64,000 nt of DNA. It comes from Arcobacter sp. F2176. Its GTDB lineage: Bacteria; Campylobacterota; Campylobacteria; Campylobacterales; Arcobacteraceae. Numbering within the stretch: the first letter of the stretch is position 1; every line of letters begins with the position of its first letter. The position numbers were made by a program, and so were the translations under genes. A model generated the notes under the pieces. It worked only from the letters and a program-made list of their open reading frames with translations. It was not told the origin of the DNA and searched no databases. Shown piece by piece: positions 10,266 through 26,616 of this stretch. Where the stretch lies: positions 1 through 64,000 of the forward strand of contig NZ_PDJV01000013.1 in NCBI RefSeq assembly GCF_004116465.1, in the 5' to 3' direction.

Positions 10266-11744
10266 TTAGACTTGCTTTCTTAATCTTGCCAACACCTTCA
10301 CCATAGCCAAAGTGTCAAGTTTACAGTACTCTAGAAGTGCACTTCTAAGTTTCAACTTCTGCTGTTCTTCTAGCTTGCTCATATTTGCAAAGGCATTCAT
10401 GGCTTGGCTTCCATTTTGAACTCCATCTAACTCTTTGTAAGCTTTTTCAAACTCAGGTACAAGCGCTGGTAAGACATACTTTATAGAGTAGCTTCCATTC
10501 ATACTAGCAGTTACATACCACTTCTTTTTAAAAGGTGTCATTAAGTCTTGTATGTTTTCATTTATAGCCAATAAGTGCTGTTCAAGGTCTGTAAATGTGT
10601 TTGCTAGTCTTTTTATCACACCTTTTTCAAAACTCATGTTATAAGCTAATACTGTTACATTATTTGGTATATCATCACATAACTTTTGGGCTAGTTCGAA
10701 TCTACTATCAACACTATCTTGTGCCAAATACTCTTTATGTTCTAATTTTCCATCTTCATATTCAATATGAAGTGAATATTGAAAAGGGATTTGTTCAAAG
10801 GGTTTTAGTCCTTTATACTCTGGTATGGCTTGTTGATAGGTTTCAAAGTCTAAGTGATAGATTGGGTAGGTTAGGTTTTCTAAAAAGGCTTTGATATTTT
10901 CTTTGTCTATGTAGCTTGCTTTTGATTTATAGTTTTCTATTGCTTGTTTTTGAATAGTAGTCATATCAAAATCTTCTGGGATATCTGCAATATCTATGAT
11001 ACCATTATTGTATAGTTCAACTTGCTTTTTACTTCCAAGATTGAAGATATTAAATATAGAATAATCAGGTATATCCCTTTGCACTTTCCAACAATAATTT
11101 TTTGCATCACATTCATAGGGTTTGTTACAATGTTTTCCTATATCAATATTTGGCTCATTTTCTTTATCATTCAAATATATTTCAAACTCTTTTAATATGC
11201 TTGGGATATTTGTCTGTAAGTTTTGCACCGCACTTGTAACATCAACTATCTTAAAAAGCTTATTTAACTCTAAAGACTCACCTCTTACATACTCACTATT
11301 TATATGTACTACACTTGCACTTTTTATACTAAAGCCTAAGTTTTGTAAAACATAATACTGAATAGATACATCATGAAGATATATATCTTTTACCTCTGTA
11401 GAGCTTTTAACTTCATAAATAGATACTTCACCATTAGAAATAGTCAAAATATCCACCATGACTAAAATACCCTCGTAGTTAAAAGTAGCTTCATAAATAC
11501 TAGGCACACCTCCATCAAGCCACTTTTTAGTTGTAGCTATCATCTCATCATATTCCCTTGTAAAAGGTACTTCTTTACCCTCAGAGAAAAGTTGACAAGC
11601 AAAGTTCCCAACTATATTTCCTGTTTCAAATATAGCCTGTGCTTGCTCATCTGGTGGTGTTAGGACACTTGGTTTATATTTTTTAAGCCAAAGGGCTTTG
11701 GGGCATTGAATACCTTTTGTGTAGAGGGATTTAGAGAGATTCAT
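10266..11744 (-). CDS. DUF2779 protein: Cas4-like PD-(D/E)XK domain fused to a DEDD exonuclease-like domain
   Basis: A 492-aa protein with two nuclease-like parts. The N-terminal part has a Cas4/RecB-type site, D98, E111-V-K113 and a following Q129 (QYYVL), plus four cysteines, C14 (GIQCPKALW) and C206, C212, C218 (CNKPYECDAKNYC), arranged like the Fe-S ligands of Cas4/AddB nucleases. The C-terminal part has YHLDFET (D299, E301), AYNMSFEKGVIKRL and LLEYCKLDTLAMV, the three motifs of a DEDD 3'-5' exonuclease. Family members are widespread but not well characterised; a DNA repair or defence role is inferred. No CRISPR array is present. The 5' end of this gene is partly duplicated at 16444-16478 and 18611-18737. 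Confidence 0.85.
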   Translation of the reverse strand: MNLSKSLYTKGIQCPKALWLKKYKPSVLTPPDEQAQAIFETGNIVGNFACQLFSEGKEVPFTREYDEMIATTKKWLDGGVPSIYEATFNYEGILVMVDILTISNGEVSIYEVKSSTEVKDIYLHDVSIQYYVLQNLGFSIKSASVVHINSEYVRGESLELNKLFKIVDVTSAVQNLQTNIPSILKEFEIYLNDKENEPNIDIGKHCNKPYECDAKNYCWKVQRDIPDYSIFNIFNLGSKKQVELYNNGIIDIADIPEDFDMTTIQKQAIENYKSKASYIDKENIKAFLENLTYPIYHLDFETYQQAIPEYKGLKPFEQIPFQYSLHIEYEDGKLEHKEYLAQDSVDSRFELAQKLCDDIPNNVTVLAYNMSFEKGVIKRLANTFTDLEQHLLAINENIQDLMTPFKKKWYVTASMNGSYSIKYVLPALVPEFEKAYKELDGVQNGSQAMNAFANMSKLEEQQKLKLRSALLEYCKLDTLAMVKVLARLRKQV

Positions 11745-11910: not shown

Positions 11911-13248
11911 ATGGTTAATAAATTCTCACGAATCGGATTTATTTTAGCAGCAGCTGGTTCTGCTGTTGGACTTGGTAATATTTGGAAGTTTCCTTATATT
12001 ACAGGAGAATATGGTGGAGGTGCTTTTGTACTAATTTACCTTGTTGCTATTTTGTTTATTGGACTTACTGTATTTCTTGCAGAAGCTGTAATTGGTCAAA
12101 ATGGTCAAGCAAATGTATCAACTTCATTTGTAATTATGTCAAAATCTAAAAATCCAAATTGGAAACTAGCTGGTTTTATGGTTGCAACAGGCTTAATTGT
12201 TCTATCTTTTTATTCTGTTGTTTTAGGTTGGATTTTAAATTATGTTGTAAGTTCATTTGATACCTTACCTACAAAAACAGAAATTGCTGGTGCAAAATTT
12301 GAAAACTTAATTTCAAATGATATTGGCTCTCTTCTTATTTATCATACTTTAATTGCGGGGTCTGTTGTTTTTATTGTATTAAAAGGGATTAAGGAAGGAA
12401 TTGAAAAAATCAATTTGATATTGATGCCCTTACTAGGATTAATATTAATAGGTCTTTTAATTTATGCCTTTACACTTGATTCTTTTTCTCAAGCAGTATC
12501 TTTTATGTTTATTCCTGATTTTAGTAAAATTGATGGAAATGCTTTATTAGCTGCATTAGGACAAGCTTTTTTTACATTGTCTCTTGGAGTGGGTACTATT
12601 TTAACATATTCTGCATCATTATCTAAAAAGACTAATTTTGTTAAATCATCTTTTTATGTAGCAGCAGTTGATACTACAATTGCAATTGTAGCAGGATTGA
12701 TTATCTTTTCTTTTCTTTTTGAAGCAGGAGCACCAAGTGCTGCTGGACCTGGACTAGTGTTTATTTCTCTTCCAGTTATTTTTTCAGGATGGGGATTATT
12801 AGGTCATATAATTGCTGTGTCGTTTTTTGTTGCTTTAGTTTTTGCAGGAATTACATCAGCTGTTTCAATGATCGAACCAGCACTTAGGTTTTTTATTGAA
12901 AGATTTAAAATCACAAGGGCAAAAGCTACAATTATATGTGGTTCAACTTTTTATATTTTAGGTATAGTTGCCCTACTTTCTATGTCAAAAACCTATGCAG
13001 ATGAGTTAACTTTTTTTGGGAAAAACGCCTTTGATATTATGGATTTTATGACTTCATCAGTTATGATGCCCCTTGCAGCAATTTTAACTTGCGTATTTTT
13101 AGGGTATTTTGTTGATAAAAAACTTTTAGAAGAAAAATTCTTAGCACACTGTTCATCAAGTGTTTTTAATACTTGGTATTTCTTAATTAGATTTGTTGTT
13201 CCTATTGCTATTGTAATTTTATTATTAAATAAATTAGGAGCTATATAG
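11911..13248 (+). CDS. Sodium-dependent transporter, NSS/SNF family (copy 1)
   Basis: A 445-aa membrane protein of the neurotransmitter:sodium symporter family, which takes up amino acids or related solutes with Na+. The first helix carries the family signature AAAGSAVGLGNIWKFPY, followed by GGGAFVLIYL. About 11-12 membrane segments are visible, including ALGQAFFTLSLGVGTILTY, the segment equivalent to the bacterial TM6 region. The substrate cannot be read from the sequence. The start is ATG at 11911 after AAAGG. It is followed with zero spacing by a close paralog of identical length, so the pair is a tandem duplication in one operon. Confidence 0.92.
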   Translation: MVNKFSRIGFILAAAGSAVGLGNIWKFPYITGEYGGGAFVLIYLVAILFIGLTVFLAEAVIGQNGQANVSTSFVIMSKSKNPNWKLAGFMVATGLIVLSFYSVVLGWILNYVVSSFDTLPTKTEIAGAKFENLISNDIGSLLIYHTLIAGSVVFIVLKGIKEGIEKINLILMPLLGLILIGLLIYAFTLDSFSQAVSFMFIPDFSKIDGNALLAALGQAFFTLSLGVGTILTYSASLSKKTNFVKSSFYVAAVDTTIAIVAGLIIFSFLFEAGAPSAAGPGLVFISLPVIFSGWGLLGHIIAVSFFVALVFAGITSAVSMIEPALRFFIERFKITRAKATIICGSTFYILGIVALLSMSKTYADELTFFGKNAFDIMDFMTSSVMMPLAAILTCVFLGYFVDKKLLEEKFLAHCSSSVFNTWYFLIRFVVPIAIVILLLNKLGAI

Positions 13249-14586
13249 ATGAAAACAGGATTTTCAAGAGTTGGATTTATTTTAGCAGCAGCAGGATCTG
13301 CTGTTGGTCTTGGTAATATTTGGAAATTTCCCTATGTAACAGGTGAAAATGGAGGAGGAGCTTTTGTACTTATTTATTTGTTAGCTATTGCTTTTATTGG
13401 TCTAACAATTTTTATTGCAGAATCGTATATAGGTAGAGAATCAAGAGCAAATGCAGCTGCTGCATATCAGATTGTTTCAAAATCAAAAAACAAAAACTGG
13501 AGATGGGCAGGATTTCAAATATTTTCTGGAATTGTAATTTTATCTTTTTATGCTTTTATTATTGGTTGGATTTTAAATTATATCATTATATCTTTTACAG
13601 GACTTCCAACTACTTTAGAAGAATCCAAAACAGTATTTACAACCTTAATTACTGAAAAAATAGGATTACAAATCTTATTTCATACTATTGTTACGTCAAC
13701 AGTAATTTATATTATTTTAAAGGGTGTAAAAAATGGTATTGAAAAGTTAAACCTAATCTTAATGCCTCTACTTGCAATTATTCTTTTGGGTCTATTAGCA
13801 TACTCTTTTACCCTTGATTCTTTTTCAAAAGCTTTAGAGTTTATGTTTATGCCTGACTGGTCAAAAATAGACGAAAACGCGATTTTAGCAGCTGTAGGAC
13901 AAGCATTTTTCACATTGTCTCTTGGTATGGCTATTATTATTACTTACTCTGCTTCTATGCCAAAAGATGGAAACTTTATAAAGTCTTCTATAATGGTTGC
14001 AATGGTTGATACAGCTGTTGCATTAATTGCAGGAGTTATCATCTTTTCTTTCCTTTTTGCAGCAGGTGCAAAAAGTACAGCTGGTCCTGGTCTTGTATTT
14101 ATATCATTGCCACTAATATTTGGAGGATGGGGAATATTTGGACAAATAATTGCTTTAGCTTTTTTTGTAGCCTTATTATTTGCAGGTATTACATCAGCAG
14201 TTTCACTACTAGAGCCACCATTAATGTATTTAATGGAAACATATAAAATAACAAGAAAAAAAGCAACGGTAATTGCTGGTTCATTTTTTTATATTTTAGG
14301 TATTTTTGCTTTATTATCTATGAGTAAAGATTATGGTTCTTTATTAACATTCTTTAATAAAAATTTATTTGATTGGTTGGATTATTTGACATCTTCTATA
14401 GCTATGCCAATATCAGGATTTGTAACTTGTATCTTCTTAGGTTTCTTTACAGATACAAACAAATTGAAACAAATCTTTACTAAATATGTTCCTCAAACAG
14501 TATTTAAAATCTGGTTGGTTTTAGTAAGATTTATTGTACCTATTGCAATTGTTTTATTGTTTTTAAATAAACTTGGAGTGATTTAA
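13249..14586 (+). CDS. Sodium-dependent transporter, NSS/SNF family (copy 2)
   Basis: A 445-aa paralog of the preceding gene, beginning immediately after its TAG. It has the same TM1 signature (AAAGSAVGLGNIWKFPY), the same GQAFFTLSLGM helix and the same C-terminal FLNKLGVI versus LLNKLGAI. The copies differ most in the loops and in the region 105-140, which could mean different substrates, or the two could work as one heteromeric transporter (both are inference; NSS pairs are known in bacteria). A hairpin lies just downstream. Confidence 0.92.
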   Translation: MKTGFSRVGFILAAAGSAVGLGNIWKFPYVTGENGGGAFVLIYLLAIAFIGLTIFIAESYIGRESRANAAAAYQIVSKSKNKNWRWAGFQIFSGIVILSFYAFIIGWILNYIIISFTGLPTTLEESKTVFTTLITEKIGLQILFHTIVTSTVIYIILKGVKNGIEKLNLILMPLLAIILLGLLAYSFTLDSFSKALEFMFMPDWSKIDENAILAAVGQAFFTLSLGMAIIITYSASMPKDGNFIKSSIMVAMVDTAVALIAGVIIFSFLFAAGAKSTAGPGLVFISLPLIFGGWGIFGQIIALAFFVALLFAGITSAVSLLEPPLMYLMETYKITRKKATVIAGSFFYILGIFALLSMSKDYGSLLTFFNKNLFDWLDYLTSSIAMPISGFVTCIFLGFFTDTNKLKQIFTKYVPQTVFKIWLVLVRFIVPIAIVLLFLNKLGVI

Positions 14587-15319: not shown

Positions 15320-15400
15320 ATGGTCTTAATTAAAAATTCTTATTATATCAAAATATTATTTGCATTTGTAACTAAAATATGGTACTATAATTATGAGTAA
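15320..15400 (+). CDS. Possible 26-residue leader peptide overlapping hicA
   Basis: ATG at 15320 follows a near-perfect ribosome binding site (AAAAGGAGAG, 15307-15316) and opens a 26-codon frame, MVLIKNSYYIKILFAFVTKI and six further residues. The stop TAA (15398-15400) lies inside hicA, 8 bases overlapping the hicA start at 15393. hicA itself has no evident ribosome binding site. The arrangement suggests that the toxin is translated by coupling to this short frame. Conservation is unknown, so this remains a candidate. Confidence 0.45.
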   Translation: MVLIKNSYYIKILFAFVTKIWYYNYE

Positions 15401-15641
15401 AAAAGATAAACTTTTATTAAAATTTCTGGAGATTCCTCCAAGAAAAGATTTAACATTTAAAGAATTAAATTCATTACTTAATTCTTTAGGTTTTGAAAAG
15501 ATTGAAGGTGCTGGTTCTGCAATAAAATTTTACAGTAAAGAAAAAGATTTACTTTTAAATCTTCATAAACCACATCCAAGTGATATTTTAAAAGTTTATA
15601 TTATAAAACAAATACAGAATAAATTAAAGGAGATTATCTAA
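15393..15641 (+). CDS. hicA: HicA-family mRNA interferase toxin
   Basis: An 82-aa protein of the HicA toxin family, which folds like a double-stranded RNA binding domain and cleaves mRNA. The central part has the family pattern GAGSAIKFYSKEK followed by LNLHKPHPSDILKVYIIKQI. The conserved histidine sits in LHKPHP, as in the subfamily where the earlier GSH motif is replaced; here that site reads GSA. The start has no clear ribosome binding site and is overlapped by a short upstream frame. One strand and zero spacing link it to the antitoxin gene. Confidence 0.85.
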   Translation: MSKKDKLLLKFLEIPPRKDLTFKELNSLLNSLGFEKIEGAGSAIKFYSKEKDLLLNLHKPHPSDILKVYIIKQIQNKLKEII

Positions 15642-15986
15642 ATGTCTAATACTATTGAATACAACGGATATATTGGCACTATTGAATACTCTCAAGAAGA
15701 CAAATGCTTCTTTGGTAAGTTAGATATGATAAATGATTTAGTAACTTTTGAAGCCAATAATGCGAATGATTTAGAAAAAAACTTTAAAAATGCAGTTGAT
15801 GAGTATATAGAAACTTGCAAACAACTAGGGCGTGAACCTCAAAAAGCTTTTAAGGGTGTTTTCAACGTACGAACAGGAAGTGAGTTACATATGGCTGCTG
15901 TTAGAAATGCTTTAAAAATGGGCATTTCTTTAAACTCTTATATTAAAAGTCTAATAGAAAAAGATGTGAAAATATTTTTGCATTAA
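15642..15986 (+). CDS. hicB: HicB-family antitoxin
   Basis: A 114-aa antitoxin that neutralises HicA and probably represses the pair. The N-terminal half is the partial RNase H-like fold (YNGYIGTIEYSQEDKCFFGK). The C-terminal part is a ribbon-helix-helix/HTH segment (FNVRTGSELHMAAVRNAL then GISLNSYIKSLI). It starts directly after the hicA TAA, with AAGGAG at 15627-15632 as ribosome binding site. That is stronger than the signal before hicA, as expected for excess antitoxin. Confidence 0.88.
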   Translation: MSNTIEYNGYIGTIEYSQEDKCFFGKLDMINDLVTFEANNANDLEKNFKNAVDEYIETCKQLGREPQKAFKGVFNVRTGSELHMAAVRNALKMGISLNSYIKSLIEKDVKIFLH

Positions 15987-16494: not shown

Positions 16495-18579
16495 TTAATA
16501 TTCTCTTGGAATAATATAATTAATATTCTCCTCATTTACCAAAACATTTTCTATTTTAATTACTTCTTTCCAAAAAATATTTTCATTTATATTTTTAATA
16601 AACCTATCAACTCTAAAACCATCAGGATATAAAATTTCATCTTCTGCTATAAGTAAATTTATCATTTCAAACATAGAAACTTTTAAATAGCCATTAATAA
16701 TCTCATGGTCAAATTCAAAACTTGTATCAATAATCAAAGAAAATATTTGATTAGGTTTATTGAATGATTTTAAAAAAAGTTTATTCTCTTCTTCTATTAA
16801 TCTATTAATTAACTTTTCTCTTTTTCTTAATTGATTTGAAGCTTTTCTTAAAACTGAGGTTTTATAATTCCATATATTTTCAAATGATGTTCTAATATAT
16901 GTAGATTTTAATTCTAAAACAAACAAATAACCATCTTTTTCACATATTAAGTCTATATCTCCTACTTCATATTCTTCACTACATTGAATCATATAATTTG
17001 CTTTTACATTAAACCCTAATTTTTCAAATAATGTAGCTAGTTTTTTTTCACTATTTTGTACTTCATCTTTTCTAAATTTTGTTCTTTTATAATGAATATT
17101 CAATATATTGTTAATCACTGATGTATTTATATTTTGTAATCCTATTAAAAAAGGAAAAGTAAAAACCATGTTGTCTAATTTTAATAAAGGTTTTTCAAAT
17201 ATTGATGGAACTTTTAATTCCTTATTAGAAACAATGTTTTTTAAATCATAAGTATAAAAATCTTCAACATTATTTCTAACTGGCTCAGGAAAGGAAGGAT
17301 TACTATTATTACTATTATTACTATTATTTGAAAAATCATATTGATTTGCAATAATAATAGGAAGTCTTTGTTTACCTTGCATTAAACCTTCAAACAAGAA
17401 TTTTTCATATGCTTCTGTCCAACTATAACTTTCTAATTTTTTTAAATAATTATCAACGAAATAATACTTGTGAAATATATTTAATCTACTAAAACTATGT
17501 AAAGTATCAGATATAGGTATTGTTATATTATTTGAAATATACAAATCATCTTCGATTCCATAGATTTTTTTTAAAATTAAATCTAAGCCTCTTGCTTGAA
17601 TAAAAGCTTCTTTATTAATAATATCATTTTCTTTTGTACCAAAAGTTTCTTCTTTTAATAATGATTCAAATAAAGATATTGCATATTCTAAATAATATAG
17701 AAAAAAACTATCTATCTTATTGTTATCATTTAACCATTTATTATATTTTGAGATATCAATTACATTTAAGCTTAATGTTTTATCTTTCAATTCAAATGAA
17801 AAATTATTATCAAAGCAAAAAGTTGAAATTTCATTTTCGTTAAAAAGATAGTATTCTTTATAAACTTTTACTATATCTGCTAATCTATTTAAATCGTCGA
17901 AATTATTTTTAGGTGAAATTAAATCAATTACTTTTTTCGCACTTTTTTCATATTCATATTCACCTTTTTTCTTATCTTTTGTCTTTAATCTATCTTTTAA
18001 AATTTCACTTAAAATCTTACCGTTTAGTTCATAGTTTTGTAATATAGTATTATCTGAAACATGTTTCATAAGATATAGACCTATTGAACATAATAGATTT
18101 AAATATGCGTAACTATTTAATCGAACTCCTGCTTTTTCTTTTTTTTGTAGTAAATAATCATATTTGTTAGAGATAATATCGCAAGTTAAAAAAAACTCTT
18201 GTTCAATATTTTTTTCATTATAATAATTTTTTATATTGATAAAATTTGGGTCTGATTTCTTTAAAAATATTTTTGAATACTTAATTGCATCAAGAAAAAC
18301 TTTCTTCTCTAATTTGACTACATCCTTAATAAATTCATTTTTAAAGATATAATTTTCATTAAAAGCTTTTTTAATACACAATCTAAATTCTAATGAACTG
18401 AAATAGTTGTTAAGATTTAACCCCTCAATAAAAGACCAAAACAAATCTCTTCTTTTCATCTTTTTTAAACTTTTTGGTTTATCATCTAGATATACATTAA
18501 ATATTTCTTTTATTGATTCTTCTTCGTTAAACTCTTTTTTCAATAATGTTTCATATTTATTTTTATAATAATTATTCAT
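16495..18579 (-). CDS. Large protein with a C-terminal PD-(D/E)XK nuclease domain
   Basis: A 694-aa protein. Only the C-terminal part is recognisable. GDIDLICEKDGYLFVLELKS (about 539-558) is a textbook PD-(D/E)XK core (D, then E-x-K), preceded by LATLFEKLGFNVKANY and followed by a helix with ASNQLRKREKLINRL (about 580-594). The first 430 residues are helical, lysine-rich and unrecognised, with no helicase or ATPase motif. A low-complexity SNN repeat at about 425-437 is coded by a TTA/ATT microsatellite (17303-17332). The gene lies downstream of the Gabija-like genes on the same strand but is separated from them by a DUF2779 remnant. A defence-associated nuclease is plausible; this is inference. 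Confidence 0.7.
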   Translation of the reverse strand: MNNYYKNKYETLLKKEFNEEESIKEIFNVYLDDKPKSLKKMKRRDLFWSFIEGLNLNNYFSSLEFRLCIKKAFNENYIFKNEFIKDVVKLEKKVFLDAIKYSKIFLKKSDPNFINIKNYYNEKNIEQEFFLTCDIISNKYDYLLQKKEKAGVRLNSYAYLNLLCSIGLYLMKHVSDNTILQNYELNGKILSEILKDRLKTKDKKKGEYEYEKSAKKVIDLISPKNNFDDLNRLADIVKVYKEYYLFNENEISTFCFDNNFSFELKDKTLSLNVIDISKYNKWLNDNNKIDSFFLYYLEYAISLFESLLKEETFGTKENDIINKEAFIQARGLDLILKKIYGIEDDLYISNNITIPISDTLHSFSRLNIFHKYYFVDNYLKKLESYSWTEAYEKFLFEGLMQGKQRLPIIIANQYDFSNNSNNSNNSNPSFPEPVRNNVEDFYTYDLKNIVSNKELKVPSIFEKPLLKLDNMVFTFPFLIGLQNINTSVINNILNIHYKRTKFRKDEVQNSEKKLATLFEKLGFNVKANYMIQCSEEYEVGDIDLICEKDGYLFVLELKSTYIRTSFENIWNYKTSVLRKASNQLRKREKLINRLIEEENKLFLKSFNKPNQIFSLIIDTSFEFDHEIINGYLKVSMFEMINLLIAEDEILYPDGFRVDRFIKNINENIFWKEVIKIENVLVNEENINYIIPREY

Positions 18580-18610
18580 ATATACTCTTTTTTAATCAAT
18601 AATGTAGTCA

Positions 18611-18737
18611 AGTTTCCCGTTTCAAATATAGCCTGTGCTTCTTCATCTATTGGTGTTAAAACACTTGACTTATACTTTTAACAAAGTGCTTTGGAGCATT
18701 AGATACCTTTTGTGTAGAGGGATTTAGATAGGTTCAT
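18611..18737 (-). pseudogene. Remnant of a DUF2779 gene (5' end)
   Basis: From the ATG at 18737 about 43 codons align with residues 1-43 of the intact DUF2779 protein (start MNLSKSLYTKGI, later SVLTP, then EAQAIFETGN). Two in-frame stops replace residues 13 and 20, and one codon is lost. Downstream the similarity ends and the 694-aa gene begins. The first bases overlap the end of the 120-aa gene, whose last codons (NEP and the stop) are made from this remnant. It records a duplication or replacement of a second DUF2779 copy. Confidence 0.85.
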
Positions 18738-19086
18738 TAAGAAAATAATCTTGTTCAGTTATCTTAATAATGGGATAATCTTCATCTCCAAAACCAAGTT
18801 CATTAATAGCTTCAAATATTTTTTTTGCTATATTTGGAAAATAATATATTGCTGAAGAACCCCTTGTTCCACTTCCAGAAATATAATAGTATTGAAATTC
18901 ATTCATATCTCTAATTGCAAAAAAATGATTATTTTGTAAAGATATTTTATTTTCAGTATTCCATTTTTTTCCAGGCATAGTAGCAATTTTTAAAACATCA
19001 CTTTTAGTAAATGTAAAAGATTCTTCACCATGATAAGCTTTAAACATTAATACTATTTTAGGTTCTAATTCAATTATATCATACAT
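18724..19086 (-). CDS. Unrecognised 120-aa protein in the Gabija-like operon
   Basis: I do not recognise this protein. It is acidic to neutral, without signal peptide or membrane helix, and has aromatic-rich strands such as HFFAIRDMNEFQYYYISGSG and AIYYFPNIAKKIF. It follows the helicase gene by 15 bp with a strong ribosome binding site (GGAAGGAG), so it is expressed with the OLD-type and UvrD-like genes. Its final residues run into the DUF2779 remnant, so the native C-terminus may have been changed by the junction. Confidence 0.65.
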   Translation of the reverse strand: MYDIIELEPKIVLMFKAYHGEESFTFTKSDVLKIATMPGKKWNTENKISLQNNHFFAIRDMNEFQYYYISGSGTRGSSAIYYFPNIAKKIFEAINELGFGDEDYPIIKITEQDYFLNEPI

Positions 19087-19101
19087 AAGAAATACTCCTT
19101 C

Positions 19102-21084
19102 CTATAAATCTATTTTAATTGCATCTGAAAAAAATGTTAACAAATTACTTTCTTCCTCTTCTTTAATTAGTTTTACACAAGTTAAATTTGTTTTTGTTCT
19201 TGAGCATGCAACATAAAAAAGTTTTTGACTGTCAATTTTTTTAGCCTCATTATTACTAGAGTCAAATAGATTTGTAAAATCATATTCATTCCAAAAATAC
19301 TCATCTAATACTACTATAACATTATCTATTCCAGTACCTTTTGTTTTATGCATTGTAATATAATTCATTTTTTCATTTATATAATTGTAGTAGTTTGTAA
19401 TTTCTTGAAAAGTTACATCAGGAGAAAATAAACCTATAAAGAACTTCTCTTTTTTAACTTCTCTCTCTAAATCTTTAAATTGTTCTTCTTCAATCTCAAT
19501 ACCAGCTTTATTCATTTTTGTTAATGTATTCATATCATTGAAATAGTTTGTTTTAAAAGTTTGATATTCATCATTCGTTAAACCTGATAAAAAAGCATTT
19601 TTCCTTGCAATATATGATTCAAAAGACTCAGACTTTTTTAATAAATTATTTTCAAAAGCATAACTTATTGCTTCAATTGCACTTCCTTCGAACTCTAATA
19701 AATATTCAATACTATCTTTAAGTCTCTGCTTATCTTCTATAGTTTTCATTGGATAACCAACTTTTTTTAACTCACTTAAAATATAGTTATACTTACCATT
19801 TGCATAAGATTGACAAAGTTCAACTAAATCCATGAACTGCAGTTTTATTAGCACCACTTCAATATACTCTTTAGGTTCTTGATACCTTTGTGCAAAAGTA
19901 TTATAAAGATTTAAGAAATCTGCTTCTGTAGAAATGGATTTATTTGTTAACATTAATAATTTAGAATTTGGTTGATTAAAATTTGCTAAATCTATTAACT
20001 TATTTATTTTTTCTATATATTCATTCTTATCTTCTTGACTTGAAAATACATTTGGTTTACTTTCAACTATTGAATAATAAAAATTTGCAGTACCTTGCCT
20101 TTCATCTAAACTATTTTCACTATGTTTTAAGGCAACCTCTTGCCTTAAACCATCATTTCTAATTTTATTAATAAAATCTTTAACTTGAACAGAACATCTA
20201 TAATTGTCTTCTTTAGGTATCTCATTTAATAAACTATTTGAGATGTACTTTTGAACATCTCCTATCCCATCACTATAAATTGACTGCATTGAATCACCAA
20301 ATAAACCAATAAGAGTTCTTTCATTTTCAGGTAGACATTCTAAAAAGACTTTTATAATTTTTTCATTAGTATCTTGGTATTCATCTATAAAAATATAATC
20401 AAATCTATCTTGAAGAATTTTACCAATTTTAGGAAATGTACTAAACAGTTGATATGATATTTCTAATAATCCATCATGTCCAAAAGTTAAATCACTATAA
20501 CTATCAAAGCGTGTTTCATTATACTTAATTTTATTGTACTCTTTTTCTTCAATTTGACTTTTTATTATTTCATTTAAACTATCAATTAAGTTATTTAATT
20601 CTTCGTTATAAGTATTTGGACTTTTGTCATATTCTCTTTTTCCAATTGCTTTTCCTATACTTTCAGATTGAATAGTAAATAGTTTTTTTGCATATTTTTC
20701 ATATATTTTCTTATACTTTTCATGTTCTTTCTTTTTCTGTAATTTTTCATCACCATCATAAAACTCAATTTCTTTTCGTTCTATTTTTTCAACTTTAAAA
20801 AGTTCAAAAATACATTGAGATATATTCTTTTTATAATCTTTGATAATCGAATTTAAGAAAGAATGAATCGTACTGATTGTGTATTGTTCCCCAACTCTTG
20901 ATTTTATCTCATCAACTGCTAAGTTTGTATGTGTAATACAAGCAACTTTTTTATCTGGATAATTTTCAGTAATATATTCTAAAACCTCTTTCAATGTTTC
21001 AGTTTTACCACTACCTGCACCACCTTGAAGAACAAAAGATTTATTTTCTTCAATAGATTGCTTTATCTTATCAAGAGGCGTCAT
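19102..21084 (-). CDS. gajB: UvrD-like superfamily 1 helicase, GajB-like
   Basis: A 660-aa superfamily 1 helicase. Walker A is GGAGSGKT (G21-T28). The motif II region is DYIFIDEYQDT (about 228-238), motif III-like GLFGDSMQSIYSDG follows, and a C-terminal motif VI-like KLFYVACSRTKTNL comes near the end. The gene starts inside the last 14 bases of the OLD-type gene, so the two are translationally coupled. An OLD-family nuclease followed by a UvrD-like helicase is the definition of the Gabija anti-phage system, where GajB is thought to respond to DNA termini and work with the GajA nuclease. At 660 aa it is longer than the better-studied GajB (about 490 aa), so assignment to Gabija proper, and not a sister system, is likely but not certain. 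Confidence 0.75.
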   Translation of the reverse strand: MTPLDKIKQSIEENKSFVLQGGAGSGKTETLKEVLEYITENYPDKKVACITHTNLAVDEIKSRVGEQYTISTIHSFLNSIIKDYKKNISQCIFELFKVEKIERKEIEFYDGDEKLQKKKEHEKYKKIYEKYAKKLFTIQSESIGKAIGKREYDKSPNTYNEELNNLIDSLNEIIKSQIEEKEYNKIKYNETRFDSYSDLTFGHDGLLEISYQLFSTFPKIGKILQDRFDYIFIDEYQDTNEKIIKVFLECLPENERTLIGLFGDSMQSIYSDGIGDVQKYISNSLLNEIPKEDNYRCSVQVKDFINKIRNDGLRQEVALKHSENSLDERQGTANFYYSIVESKPNVFSSQEDKNEYIEKINKLIDLANFNQPNSKLLMLTNKSISTEADFLNLYNTFAQRYQEPKEYIEVVLIKLQFMDLVELCQSYANGKYNYILSELKKVGYPMKTIEDKQRLKDSIEYLLEFEGSAIEAISYAFENNLLKKSESFESYIARKNAFLSGLTNDEYQTFKTNYFNDMNTLTKMNKAGIEIEEEQFKDLEREVKKEKFFIGLFSPDVTFQEITNYYNYINEKMNYITMHKTKGTGIDNVIVVLDEYFWNEYDFTNLFDSSNNEAKKIDSQKLFYVACSRTKTNLTCVKLIKEEEESNLLTFFSDAIKIDL

Positions 21085-23029
21085 TTTGAATCCATTCTAA
21101 AGCATTTTTTATATATAAAGGCATTCCCCATTCTATATTTTTTGATAAAGCCAAATACAATAATGAAAATGCAAAATCTGATTTCTTCTTTAATATTCTC
21201 TCTGTTAAATCATATATTTCTGTAGTATCAACCAATTCAATTTTATTTTGTAAACCCCTTAAATTATCTTTTTGAGTAATTAACTCAGTCAAATTAACTT
21301 TTATAAAAGCATCTTCGAAACTTCTTGCATGATAACTATCTTCACTTATTTGATAAAAGACTTTTATTTTACTTGTATCAGTAATTGACAAAGTATTATT
21401 TTTTAAATCATTAAACCATTGTGGAAAATCAACAGAGTTTATATCTGGTGCGTTAAAATATTTTTTAATTGTTGCATTGCTAGTGTGAGTTGCTCCATCA
21501 ACTTTATGTGCTGGATAAGTAGTACCTGAAGGATTAGTTGTTTTTAACGTTGTATCTATATCTGTTATGATTAAAGTCTGAATATCAAAGAACCTTACTA
21601 GCTTATCAAAGGCTTCAGCATTAGCACCTACCTCTAAAATTGAAATATTTTGAGAAGAAATTGGTACGTAATTTGGGTCAATTATTTTCTCTTCGTCAAA
21701 TTTATTAATATAATAGGGAAGTAACATTTTTTCCGTTGTTCCCTCTATAAATATAATTTTATTTGCAAAAAACAATTCTGAAGCTTGTAAAGTTAAATAC
21801 TGTTCTATGAATTGAAATTCTTCCTCTTCTGTTGCATATAATTCTTTTAATTCAGCATGAAAATTTTTAATCTTAATATTTTGATTATCTTCATTTAATA
21901 AATATCTTATATCTTTAAAATCACACTTAGAAACTATTTGAGCTGAGTGTGTTGTTATTAGTGTTTGTAAATTATCGATTTCTTCAAAAACTTTTTTTAT
22001 TTTATCAATAAATTTATATTGCATTTGTGGGTGTGTATGTGCTTCTGGCTCTTCTATGAATAATAAATTTATATCTTTTTGTTCTTCTATAAAACTTTCT
22101 TTTTTCATTTCTATGTCTAAAAGGAGATATAATATGTTCATATAACCTAGACCATTTAAATGTTCTGGTAAATGATTTGAAGTATCACCATATACTACTT
22201 TTGATGAATTAGAAATAACTTCATTTGATTCTAAGTCTGATACGACTTTTAAAGTGTCTAAATTTAAGAAATCTTTCCCTGAGGTAAGAAAGTTTCTAAA
22301 TTCAGTGTTATATTCGTCATTTAACGTTTCATCCATTTCAATCATTTTTGTATTAATATCAGAAAAATTTGTATTACTAATACTTTTTTGATTAAAATAT
22401 TTTGTAGTCATAATTGATAATATTTTTTTACCTTTATTATCATCAGAACTTGAAACATTTCTTTTTGCATGTATAATCTGAAAATTAATTAATTTTCTAA
22501 TTTGACCTATATCTTTTTTAATTAATTTATATCTATTTTCTTCTAATAAATCCTCTTCATCTTCAAATGAATAAATAGAAGTTTTTAAATAGTTATGTAG
22601 ATTTTTCTTTAAATATCTAATCTTTTTATTAGATTCAGTAAGTAGTTCTAAAAGAGGGAGTAACTTGTCTTTTTTTATTGTAACTTCAAATAGTATTTTT
22701 ACGCTATTACTGTCTGGATCTAAATCTAAAATAAACTCTGATAAATGTTCTAAATTATCTATTTGATTATAGCTTACCTCTAAAATCATTTGTATAGTTA
22801 AATCTAAAATATTAGTATCTTCATTTATAGTATTAATTTGTTCTCTTAAACATAAACTAAAATCATCATATTGAAAGGAATCATTATTATAGAACTTTTC
22901 AAACAATACTAATAAAGATGTCTTACCACTATTATTTCTACCTATCAATAAGGATAATTCATCTTTCATTTCTAATACAGAATCTTTTAACAATCTAAAA
23001 TTTTTTATTTTAATTTTTTCTATTTTCAA
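21071..23029 (-). CDS. gajA: OLD-family ATPase with TOPRIM nuclease domain, GajA-like
   Basis: A 652-aa protein. The N-terminal ABC-type ATPase has Walker A GRNNSGKT (G30-T37) and Walker B NLLFIEEPEAHTHPQMQ (about 322-338). The C-terminal TOPRIM domain starts with IIFIEGTTEKMLL (about 423-435) and has TLIITDIDTT (about 485-494), then a late helix ARSFEDAFI. These are the metal-binding acidic residues of OLD nucleases. In Gabija, GajA is a DNA-nicking endonuclease held in check by nucleotides and released when they fall during phage infection (established for the Bacillus system). It is the first gene of the operon, with the helicase and the 120-aa gene behind it. Confidence 0.8.
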   Translation of the reverse strand: MKIEKIKIKNFRLLKDSVLEMKDELSLLIGRNNSGKTSLLVLFEKFYNNDSFQYDDFSLCLREQINTINEDTNILDLTIQMILEVSYNQIDNLEHLSEFILDLDPDSNSVKILFEVTIKKDKLLPLLELLTESNKKIRYLKKNLHNYLKTSIYSFEDEEDLLEENRYKLIKKDIGQIRKLINFQIIHAKRNVSSSDDNKGKKILSIMTTKYFNQKSISNTNFSDINTKMIEMDETLNDEYNTEFRNFLTSGKDFLNLDTLKVVSDLESNEVISNSSKVVYGDTSNHLPEHLNGLGYMNILYLLLDIEMKKESFIEEQKDINLLFIEEPEAHTHPQMQYKFIDKIKKVFEEIDNLQTLITTHSAQIVSKCDFKDIRYLLNEDNQNIKIKNFHAELKELYATEEEEFQFIEQYLTLQASELFFANKIIFIEGTTEKMLLPYYINKFDEEKIIDPNYVPISSQNISILEVGANAEAFDKLVRFFDIQTLIITDIDTTLKTTNPSGTTYPAHKVDGATHTSNATIKKYFNAPDINSVDFPQWFNDLKNNTLSITDTSKIKVFYQISEDSYHARSFEDAFIKVNLTELITQKDNLRGLQNKIELVDTTEIYDLTERILKKKSDFAFSLLYLALSKNIEWGMPLYIKNALEWIQNDAS

Positions 23030-23040
23030 ATTTATTCCTT

Positions 23041-23151
23041 CTAATTTAAATCCAAACCACTAGTCCCATCACCATTAGGCTCAACCTTTATCTGCAAGGG
23101 AATTCTCTCTTTCAATGCTTCCACATGGGAAATCACACCTACAACTCCACG
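23041..23151 (-). pseudogene. C-terminal remnant of a second SbcC gene
   Basis: Just past the stop of sbcC, in a shifted frame, the minus strand encodes GVVGVISHVEALKERIP followed by LQIKV and a stop (23041-23043). This is the typical end of E. coli-type SbcC proteins (GVISHVEAMKERIP and VQIKV). The intact SbcC here ends differently (LISHEMEIKEMFEKIVEL). The remnant therefore comes from another, more E. coli-like SbcC and not from the present one. It probably marks a gene-replacement junction. Confidence 0.75.
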
Positions 23152-25511
23152 ATTTTCTCAAACATCTCCTTTATCTCCATCTCATGAGAGATTAAAAATA
23201 TCTGCCTATACTGCTCTTTTATCATATGAAAGGCTTCTAGTATCTCCATTCTTCTTGCTTCATCTTGGCTTCCAAATACTTCGTCGAAGGCTAGGAAGCC
23301 TATTTGTGAGCTTCCGCTTAGTTCGCTTAGGGTTTTTGATATGGCGATTCGTAGGACTAGGTTTGCTAGGTCTATTTCACCACCTGAGAATCTCTCTATT
23401 GGGTATTTTTTTCCTTCATCGTAGATGTAGAAGTCGAAGTCGTTTGATACTTCTATGTGTTGGTATTTGCCTTTTGTGATTTGGGCGTACATGTTTGAGG
23501 CTATGTCTGATATTCTTGGAGCTACTTTTGAGTTTAGCTTTGTTTTAAATTCACTTAGGCTTAGCTTGATTTTGTCGTAGTCGATTAGGTCGTCTTTTTT
23601 TGTTTGTACTTTTTTTAGTTGGATTTCGTTGTTGTCTAGATTTGATTGGATGGTTTTTATCTCACCTTCACATTGGGCTATTTTGACTTTGATTTCATTT
23701 ACTTGGCTCACTTTTAACTCATAAGTTTGATGGTGTTCTTCGTACTCTTTTTGTTTGGCTGTGTGAGTTGTTTCATCGTAGGCTATTTGTTTGTAGTCTA
23801 GCTCTTTTGTATCGTAAGTGCTATTTTGCTCTGTGATTTTTTTGCTGATGGTTTCTAGGTCTTGTTTTACACTATCATATCTTTTTAGCATGGTTTCTAA
23901 TGATTTCATTTGTTCATATTTTGGTTGGATTTCATTAAAACTATTTTCTAGTGTTTTGTGTTTGTTTTCATCGTAAGTGTATTTATCTAATTTGCTTATT
24001 TCATCGTTGTTTTCTTTGCCTTTTTGTTCTACATTGTTTAAATGGATTGATAGGTTTTGTAAATCTTTTTGTTTACTGTTTATAAGGGCTAGTTGTGAGT
24101 TTAGTTCACTTAAATCTTTGTCTATTTGCTCTTTTTGAGTTTCGATTGTTTTTTTGTTTGTCTCTACTTCTTGTAGCTCTTTATTTAGTTTGGTGATTTT
24201 GTTTGTTTGTATCTCTTGTATAGTTGAGTTTAGAGTGTCTATTACATTGTCATACTCTTCTAAAAGTGGTCTTGTACAAGTTGGGCAGTTGGATTCTTTG
24301 CCTAGGGCTTGGATTTGTTGTATTTTGGCTGTGGTGTCATTTATCACTCTTTGTTCTGCGAAGATGTTTGAGTTTAGCTCTTTTTCTTTTGTTTGTATTT
24401 GTGTGAGGGCTTGTTTTATTTGCTCTTGTTGGGTTTTGCTTTCTTGCTCTTTTTGTCTTAGTGAGTCAAAACCTTCGCACTCTTTTTGTAAAAGGGCTAT
24501 GTCATTTTTGGCTTTTTTGTATTGCTCTCTTAATTGAACTTGCTCTTTTAATAAGCCCTCTTTTTTTAGGCTGTATTCTTTTAGTTGTATTTGCTCTTTT
24601 AGACTAGATTGAAGGGTTTCATACTCTTTTTTTATAGGCGCTAGAGCTTTGTATTGAAGTTGTTTTTCTTCTAGGTCTTTTAGTTCAGTTGAGAGTTTAT
24701 TTTGGTTTTCTATATTTGAGTTGATACTATTTTTTAGAAGATTTAGTTCACTTAGGGCTTTTTGTTTTGCCTCTTTTGTTTTAGCAAAAAGGTCAAGCTC
24801 TTTTTTTATATCTAGCTCTTTTAGTTTTAGGCTATCTATTTGTTTGCTTTGGGTTTGTAACTCTTCGTTTAGAGTTTTTTTGATGGCTTCATTTGCTTTT
24901 ATTTGCTCTTTTTTGGCTTGTATATCTTCTGCGCTTAAAAGCACTTCTACAAAGGCTGAAATCTCTCTTTTTAGTTCTCTACTTTTTTCTATGAGTTCTT
25001 TTTCTATGTAGTCGATTTTTTCTAAGCCTAAAAGCTTTCTTATCATTCTTTTTCTATCTTCTGGTTTGCTATTACTTAGACTTGTTAGCTCTTTTTGACT
25101 GGCAAAAAGAGTATGTAAAAAGGCTTCTTTACTCATCTTGGTTAGCTTCATGATACTTGTAGTTACTTCTTTGGCACCACTTGTTATTAGTTCAGTATTT
25201 TTATAAAGTTTGGCATTGGCACTGAGCGCCTTTCCTCTGAATTCTCGTACTACTTTATACTCAATTGAGTCAAATTCAAAGTTTAGTTCTACTACTACAG
25301 CATCTTTATCTGTGGCATTGGCATTTCTTACAATGTCTTTATAACCTCTATCTTTAAACTCCCCATAAAGTGCAAAAAGAATGGCTTCAAATATTGTGGA
25401 TTTACCACTTCCATTTTTACCTATGATTCCAACTAATCCCTCATCAAAATCTAGTTCGAAAGTTTTGTATCGTTTGAAGTTTTCAAGTTTTAGCTTACAA
25501 AGTATCATCAT
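23139..25511 (-). CDS. sbcC: SbcC/Rad50-type DNA repair ATPase
   Basis: A 790-aa SMC-like ATPase that with SbcD cuts hairpins and protein-blocked DNA ends. Walker A is GKNGSGKST (G31-T39). Two long coiled-coil arms (about 165-400 and 420-640) flank the zinc hook NCPTCTRPL (about 405). The C-terminal lobe has the signature FSGGEIDLANLVLRIA (about 690) and Walker B GFLAFDEVFGSQD (about 735). It is Rad50-sized, shorter than the 1048-aa E. coli SbcC. The start overlaps the end of sbcD by 17 bases. Its codon use in the coiled coil is more T- and G-rich on the plus strand than in neighbouring genes. Confidence 0.93.
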   Translation of the reverse strand: MMILCKLKLENFKRYKTFELDFDEGLVGIIGKNGSGKSTIFEAILFALYGEFKDRGYKDIVRNANATDKDAVVVELNFEFDSIEYKVVREFRGKALSANAKLYKNTELITSGAKEVTTSIMKLTKMSKEAFLHTLFASQKELTSLSNSKPEDRKRMIRKLLGLEKIDYIEKELIEKSRELKREISAFVEVLLSAEDIQAKKEQIKANEAIKKTLNEELQTQSKQIDSLKLKELDIKKELDLFAKTKEAKQKALSELNLLKNSINSNIENQNKLSTELKDLEEKQLQYKALAPIKKEYETLQSSLKEQIQLKEYSLKKEGLLKEQVQLREQYKKAKNDIALLQKECEGFDSLRQKEQESKTQQEQIKQALTQIQTKEKELNSNIFAEQRVINDTTAKIQQIQALGKESNCPTCTRPLLEEYDNVIDTLNSTIQEIQTNKITKLNKELQEVETNKKTIETQKEQIDKDLSELNSQLALINSKQKDLQNLSIHLNNVEQKGKENNDEISKLDKYTYDENKHKTLENSFNEIQPKYEQMKSLETMLKRYDSVKQDLETISKKITEQNSTYDTKELDYKQIAYDETTHTAKQKEYEEHHQTYELKVSQVNEIKVKIAQCEGEIKTIQSNLDNNEIQLKKVQTKKDDLIDYDKIKLSLSEFKTKLNSKVAPRISDIASNMYAQITKGKYQHIEVSNDFDFYIYDEGKKYPIERFSGGEIDLANLVLRIAISKTLSELSGSSQIGFLAFDEVFGSQDEARRMEILEAFHMIKEQYRQIFLISHEMEIKEMFEKIVEL

Positions 25512-26616
25512 AAGCCTCCTCGTACTTGCTAAATAGTTCTTGGATTTTTGGTTTTAGTCTATCAAACTCTTTGCTTTCGCTTTGTTCTTTAATATGGTCT
25601 AAGAAGTACTCTTCCAAAGATAAAGCTTGAATATCATCTAAAGTCGCGCCCTCGTTTGCATCTTTTTTGAACTCTCTTTTTACACTCACACTCATAGCAA
25701 ATGGAAAAAGTAATTTTATCTCTTGGTTTTGTATATCTATTGATTGCATGGTTGTTAGGTTTTGAAGTTTTACTTCTACAATGGCATCTTTTGTATCGCT
25801 TTTATCTAAATCATCAAGTGCATTTTGGTAGTTTTCACAATCTATTGTTTTAGATATGATTGGTCTTATTTTTATCTCTTTGTATTCTACGCTTAGTTTA
25901 TCACTTAAGTTTACGAGGGCATATCCTTTTGAGTTTCGTTTGTCATTTAAACTTGTGCGCTCACTACTTCCACTATAGTATACATTTTCATGTTTGCCAA
26001 CAGAGCCAAAACCATGCCAATGCCCAAGTGCCACATAATCCATCTTAGAAAAGATATACTCTTTGTCTGTGGGATAAACCCATTCTCCAAACTCTTGCAT
26101 CAAATACCAAGCCCCAACAGAACAGTGCATCATCATGATATTTCTTTTATCAGGATTGATGTTTTTTTCACATAAGTTTATTTCATCTTCTGCTTTTGTT
26201 TCATCATTCATATGTGGTAAAGTATGGAAAACTATATCATCAAACTCTATTTTTTTGTAGTTTTGTTCATATGATACATGTACATTTTCAAACTCTTCAA
26301 ATATCTTTAAAATAGGACTGCTAAGGTTTGTCCTAGGTGTAGAATGGTTTCCAGCTATCATGATGATAGGGATATTTAGTTTATCAAGTCTTTTAAACTC
26401 TTTAAGTCCAAAGGTTATAGCTCGATTGCTTGGGCTACTTCTATGAAAAAGGTCACCTGTGTGTATTATAAAATCTGGTTTGATTTTTTCTATGTCATCA
26501 ACTATTTGAGAAAAAGCATTATAAAAGTCCGCTTCCCTTTGATTGATATTTTCTTCATTTAAAATCTCTAAGTCGTTGTATCCTAAGTGCGTATCACTAA
26601 AATGTATTATTTTCAA
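25495..26616 (-). CDS. sbcD: SbcD/Mre11-type exonuclease subunit
   Basis: A 373-aa metallophosphoesterase nuclease, partner of SbcC. It shows the metal-binding motifs in order: FSDTHLG (D8, H10), HTGDLFHRSSPSNR, IAGNHSTPR, MMMHCSVGAW and ALGHWHGFGSV. These are the phosphoesterase motifs I-V of Mre11. The C-terminal third is the capping and SbcC-binding part. The start is TTG at 26616 (TTG-AAA-ATA-ATA), with AGG eight bases upstream; no ATG lies nearby in frame. It is the first gene of the sbcDC operon. Confidence 0.92.
   Translation of the reverse strand: MKIIHFSDTHLGYNDLEILNEENINQREADFYNAFSQIVDDIEKIKPDFIIHTGDLFHRSSPSNRAITFGLKEFKRLDKLNIPIIMIAGNHSTPRTNLSSPILKIFEEFENVHVSYEQNYKKIEFDDIVFHTLPHMNDETKAEDEINLCEKNINPDKRNIMMMHCSVGAWYLMQEFGEWVYPTDKEYIFSKMDYVALGHWHGFGSVGKHENVYYSGSSERTSLNDKRNSKGYALVNLSDKLSVEYKEIKIRPIISKTIDCENYQNALDDLDKSDTKDAIVEVKLQNLTTMQSIDIQNQEIKLLFPFAMSVSVKREFKKDANEGATLDDIQALSLEEYFLDHIKEQSESKEFDRLKPKIQELFSKYEEAYDDTL

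Follow-up and report, generated by a model that had tools for sequence, protein, structure and literature searches.

Four open reading frames lie closely spaced on the minus strand of the 64,000-nucleotide stretch of Arcobacter sp. F2176 DNA analysed here (the window), encoding an OLD-type ATPase-TOPRIM nuclease, a UvrD-like helicase, a 120-aa protein and a 694-aa nuclease (Table 1). Our ORF calls agree with an earlier sequence-only reading, which had placed all four there. Two features were absent from that reading: the run of genes extends upstream of the ATPase-nuclease on the same strand into SbcC and then SbcD, and the 144 bp that precede the 694-aa gene contain the decayed 5' part of a DUF2779 gene, a full copy of which lies further along in the window.

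Table 1. Genes and gene relics of the locus, with window positions and the evidence for each.
Feature	Position	Strand	Evidence
DUF2779 protein (PD-(D/E)XK-like + RNase H-fold exonuclease), right constant end	10266..11744	-	PF11074 2e-46
Two tandem sodium-dependent (SNF) transporters, inside the slot	11911..14586	+	profile matches
HicA/HicB-like toxin-antitoxin pair, inside the slot	15393..15986	+	PHROGs toxin 1e-24, HicB-like antitoxin 1e-39
694-aa nuclease, NERD/PD-(D/E)XK, putative separate cargo unit	16495..18579	-	alignment, NERD profile, relatives after DUF2779
DUF2779 5' relic, first 45 codons, with stops and indels	18606..18737	-	tblastn E 5e-13
120-aa protein, GajB-linked, no known family	18724..19086	-	relatives in Malaciobacter halophilus and in one congener
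GajB, UvrD-like helicase	19102..21084	-	660 aa; Pfam, PADLOC
GajA, OLD-type ATPase-TOPRIM nuclease	21071..23029	-	652 aa, TTG start; Pfam, PADLOC
34-codon 3' relic of an SbcC of the larger type	23044..23145	-	E 3e-16, 94% identity with the C-terminus of SbcC from M. halophilus
SbcC/Rad50-like ATPase, smaller type (790 aa), left constant end	23139..25511	-	AAA_23, SMC_N
SbcD/Mre11-like nuclease, left constant end	25495..26616	-	Metallophos 8e-18; SbcD/Mre11 profiles

The first two genes of the group have the arrangement of Gabija, as the sequence-only reading had recognized: GajB lies directly behind GajA, and the two genes share 14 bases (21071-21084). Pfam finds AAA_15 (4e-52) and an OLD-like TOPRIM domain (7e-14) in GajA and UvrD-helicase (4e-28) in GajB, and the PADLOC profiles for GajA (626 bits, residues 1-650) and GajB (916 bits, residues 1-658) match end to end. 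Judged by these matches, the window pair is Gabija, an already known type of defence, which removes the ground for calling it an undescribed or sister system. Both proteins had also been described as longer than the studied Gabija proteins. This is correct with respect to the structurally studied GajB of Bacillus cereus, which is described to residue 494 (PMC10681800), but the length is normal for their own subgroup, since the matching PADLOC profiles have 670 (GajA) and 669 (GajB) positions. The TTG start of GajA is supported by M. halophilus, where the same TTG is used, and by an Aliarcobacter butzleri plasmid that has ATG at that position.

Gabija has been described as a nucleotide-controlled nicking endonuclease with a helicase-like partner (PMC10681800). 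By homology to the B. cereus system, GajA would cut phage DNA once activated by GajB, which would itself be activated by DNA ends, such that the window GajAB should provide phage defence as in Gabija. The window GajA is 97% identical to that of M. halophilus. At the DNA level, the comparison of window positions 19102-23029 with M. halophilus (locus L067) is a mosaic, in which GajA and the beginning of GajB are about 97-100% identical and the remainder of GajB about 80%. Close Gabija relatives are also found outside the slot described below (L022, L101), and a distant Gabija-like pair (30% identity) occupies the same slot in another locus (L096:6870-12066), where the third gene differs and encodes a 358-aa protein with a weak TumE-toxin match.

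The 120-aa gene starts about 15 bp past GajB, with AGGAAGGAG preceding its start, and its product has no family match in Pfam, PADLOC or NCBIfam; a structure model (pLDDT 59) was too poor for a fold search. The gene is present in three genomes of the Arcobacteraceae family searched. In M. halophilus it lies directly behind GajB, as in the window, and in a congener (L014) it comes after a Lamassu operon (LmuA, LmuB). In the latter, the roughly 80 bp before the gene resemble the GajB 3' end (alignment score 95; highest score among shuffles 39), and it follows that this copy once stood behind GajB as well. Thus, when recurrence beside Gabija was checked, as the sequence-only reading had proposed, each of the three loci had the gene behind GajB or behind a relic of the GajB 3' end. 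The suggestion that this Gabija carries accessory proteins finds support for the 120-aa gene, but not for the 694-aa gene, the close relatives of which follow DUF2779. We would guess that the 120-aa protein most likely serves GajAB as a small partner or as its regulator. The Lamassu operon in L014 (10570-14264) has apparently replaced a Gabija pair; what remains at the site is the GajB 3' end, together with the 120-aa gene and a short relic of the DUF2779 5' end.

The PD-(D/E)XK core attributed to the 694-aa protein is borne out by alignment, in which D543, E556 and K558 (D-ExK) are invariant across six sequences of this type. Five of the six reach the NERD profile (best 3e-5), while the match of the window protein itself is below the cut-off (E 0.0077). 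The window protein reaches no PADLOC profile, scans of genome contigs and viruses found no relative of it, and a model of the nuclease domain (pLDDT 39) was too poor for a fold search. Four close copies were found: on two Arcobacteraceae plasmids, in one congener and in this window. Two of the four are damaged, by an in-frame stop in the congener and by truncation on the A. cryaerophilus plasmid. In the plasmids and the congener a full DUF2779 gene stands directly before the nuclease gene, and in the window its place is taken by the DUF2779 relic; only in the window does this type adjoin Gabija. The same recurrence check thus gave no support to the nuclease as an accessory of Gabija: in its close relatives the gene comes after DUF2779, within PDC-S06 operons, and the relic lies between it and Gabija here, which argues that it is a unit separate from Gabija. 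In M. halophilus, a different gene follows the same DUF2779 relic. We also considered whether a remnant of the DUF2779 3' end immediately precedes the NERD gene and rejected this; alignments with three donors were unconvincing, their scores being reached by 31, 596 and 118 of 1000 shuffles.

DUF2779 proteins have been predicted to join a 3'-5' exonuclease to a PD-(D/E)XK-like domain (PMC3985635), and the motifs EVK, LDFET and C-terminal YCxLD are invariant in eight sequences, leaving the catalytic motifs intact. We searched for DUF2779 in 104 Arcobacteraceae genomes, fetched the loci and mapped their genes, taking as testable those with at least 9 kb of sequence upstream of DUF2779. SbcC lies upstream, on the same strand as DUF2779, in 28 of 38 testable family loci, which are related rather than independent. 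Several of the other ten hold an SbcC relic. A broader scan, in which mostly other Campylobacterota came up (e.g. Sulfurospirillum, Sulfurovum), found SbcC upstream of DUF2779 in 11 of 21 further loci; downstream of DUF2779 or on the opposite strand it was seen in none of the 38 family and 21 other loci. Two SbcCD types fill the same position, with SbcC proteins of 1050-1200 aa and about 790 aa, respectively. The larger type occurs in 27 of the 104 genomes, 23 of which have it close to DUF2779 or a DUF2779 relic; the smaller type is found elsewhere in genomes too.

Between these borders, the 30 mapped loci hold 109 cargo genes of at least 90 aa, of which 104 are co-directional, and this cargo falls into 80 families and 28 arrangements. 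The slot therefore has what defines a defence hotspot, constant borders around variable defence genes. Its outer flanks are mostly unshared between the 30 loci and the arrangement is found on plasmids as well, which speaks against a fixed chromosomal address. Cargo naming was sampled rather than exhaustive and covers only part of the cargo genes; within that sample PADLOC named PDC-S06, Mokosh, Lamassu, Hachiman, Ppl, OLD, a GajA of another subgroup, dGTPase, PDC-S53 and PDC-M49A/M62A, names that are annotations and that rest, for some of the ATPases, on partial matches. A recurring run of genes with dGTPase last, directly before DUF2779, is seen with or without SbcCD (L071, L073, L083, L088), its other genes having no PADLOC name where tested. 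A PDC-S53 candidate (PADLOC, about 900 aa) is common to two slots that differ in SbcC type (L087, L076). The window slot also holds the HicA/HicB-like pair, relatives of which lie behind DUF2779 in L089, and the two tandem SNF transporters, which are found in none of the slots of mapped relatives.

The gene order recurs with many unrelated defence systems, and SbcC 3' relics and DUF2779 5' relics lie at the edges of cargo. In the window, the relic of the larger SbcC type sits between the smaller SbcC and GajA, and the same junction is present in L072 and L104; further SbcC relics are found in loci without an SbcC gene. Shorter DUF2779 fragments in loci with a full DUF2779 are 5' ends in 10 of 10 cases, leaving out four loci picked for their 5' relics, and genome-wide, outside fragmented assemblies, about eleven 5' fragments compare with three 3' fragments. 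The relics span about 23 to 133 codons. The same relic-cargo junction can follow different upstream genes, as seen for Mokosh (L062, L063, L084) and for an 896-aa helicase (L067, L069, L102). In a comparison of L062 with L063, which carry different SbcC types, a 4.7-kb cargo is 98-100% identical in most bins, the DUF2779 relic is 88% and DUF2779 about 92% identical, and the sequences before the relic and after DUF2779 are unrelated. Identity drops within each of the two DUF2779 5' segments, as crossovers in these segments would predict; this breakpoint argument draws on two locus pairs. We rejected the idea that the DUF2779 5' end contains a site-specific attachment site, since 43 DUF2779 genes showed no excess of synonymous-codon conservation there and relic lengths vary.

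These observations suggest that the window operon is a stack of cargo in an exchangeable defence slot, with SbcD-SbcC as its left border and DUF2779 as its right border, a reading to which we give a probability of about 0.7 on sequence comparisons. It is weakened by the ten family loci with no SbcC upstream, by the close Gabija relatives outside the slot, and by the lack of any synonymous-site signal that would single out the DUF2779 5' end as a DNA site. One cargo unit would be Gabija (GajA-GajB) with the linked 120-aa gene, and the other the NERD/PD-(D/E)XK nuclease that normally stands behind DUF2779. The identity profiles suggest that cargo enters or is exchanged through homologous recombination in the SbcC 3' end and the DUF2779 5' end, and that it may in this way be swapped between genomes and plasmids by a slot with no integrase of its own. 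Imperfect events would leave relics and stack cargo units. The presence of two unlike SbcCD types in the same position fits a functional need for SbcCD there. It is possible, though we hold it with considerable doubt, that SbcCD and DUF2779 form a common DNA-end-processing platform for exchangeable defence modules, with the relics of their own genes serving as portable homology arms.

Other explanations account for part of this evidence. A four-gene Gabija variant, in which GajA and GajB work jointly with the 120-aa protein and the 694-aa nuclease, would agree with the single strand and tight spacing of the four genes and with the recurrence of the 120-aa gene behind GajB. Yet the 694-aa type adjoins Gabija only here and otherwise follows DUF2779, a DUF2779 relic splits it from the Gabija unit, and M. 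halophilus has another gene after the same relic; we discarded the four-gene system on the placement of the nuclease's relatives and regard it as highly improbable. A three-gene Gabija beside an unrelated neighbour has more in its favour, given the link of the 120-aa gene to GajB in all three loci found. In this explanation the slot would be irrelevant and the locus an ordinary defence island in one fixed chromosomal hotspot, and defence hotspots with conserved border genes are indeed well known (PMC10250203, PMC10121019). Outer flanks that mostly differ between loci, copies on plasmids, two unlike SbcC types in the same position and an orientation that is always the same make this unlikely.

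Insertion of an integrase-driven genomic island at the DUF2779 5' end, with partial repeats left behind, could explain why many genomes have short fragments of the DUF2779 5' end ahead of intact copies. However, no integrase was recognized among the proteins looked up, a set outside which most small cargo ORFs fall, the relics are of varied length, and the 5' end of DUF2779 is not unusually conserved at synonymous positions. We consider this island marginally less probable even than the four-gene variant, and favour the exchangeable slot with its stacked cargo.

If the exchangeable slot is right, Campylobacterota carry a recognizable address for defence genes, and genes found between SbcC and DUF2779 are likely to serve defence. 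Many cargo genes have no family name, and the slot would therefore offer a simple route to new systems. It would also make the swapping of defence systems traceable to recombination in short border segments rather than to an integrase. Neighbours in the slot are risky to call one system, since relics show that adjacent genes arrived separately.

With regard to known systems, the window pair shares with Gabija the OLD-type ATPase-TOPRIM nuclease, the UvrD-like helicase, overlapping genes and full-length PADLOC matches, and differs, together with some relatives, by the linked 120-aa gene. It appears distant in sequence from the solved Bacillus proteins as far as a PDB profile search shows, which at E up to 5 gave no match named Gabija for GajA or GajB and had no positive control (two control proteins tried gave none, the first being a different helicase). 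The PDC-S06 operons of Arcobacteraceae plasmids CP134847 and CP099557 have the same SbcC and DUF2779 borders, with a relative of the 694-aa protein (44-48%) next in line, but their cargo is the PDC-S06 ATPase whereas that of the window is Gabija. Among viperin-associated NERD and other NERD nucleases, a 23% relative beside BREX (L021) matches the PADLOC NERD profile, unlike the window protein. In one plasmid table (PMC6690266), SbcD, SbcC, DUF2779 and dGTPase are entered in that order with no remark; we found no description of the slot between SbcCD and DUF2779 in the open-access literature, and it is apparently undescribed. Its closest counterparts are the core defence hotspots of Pseudomonas aeruginosa and the defence islands of E. 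coli, where conserved border genes likewise surround variable defence cargo (PMC10250203, PMC10121019). In contrast to these, the borders of the Arcobacteraceae slot are nuclease genes co-oriented with the cargo, its outer flanks differ, copies exist on plasmids, and it contains relics of its own border genes.
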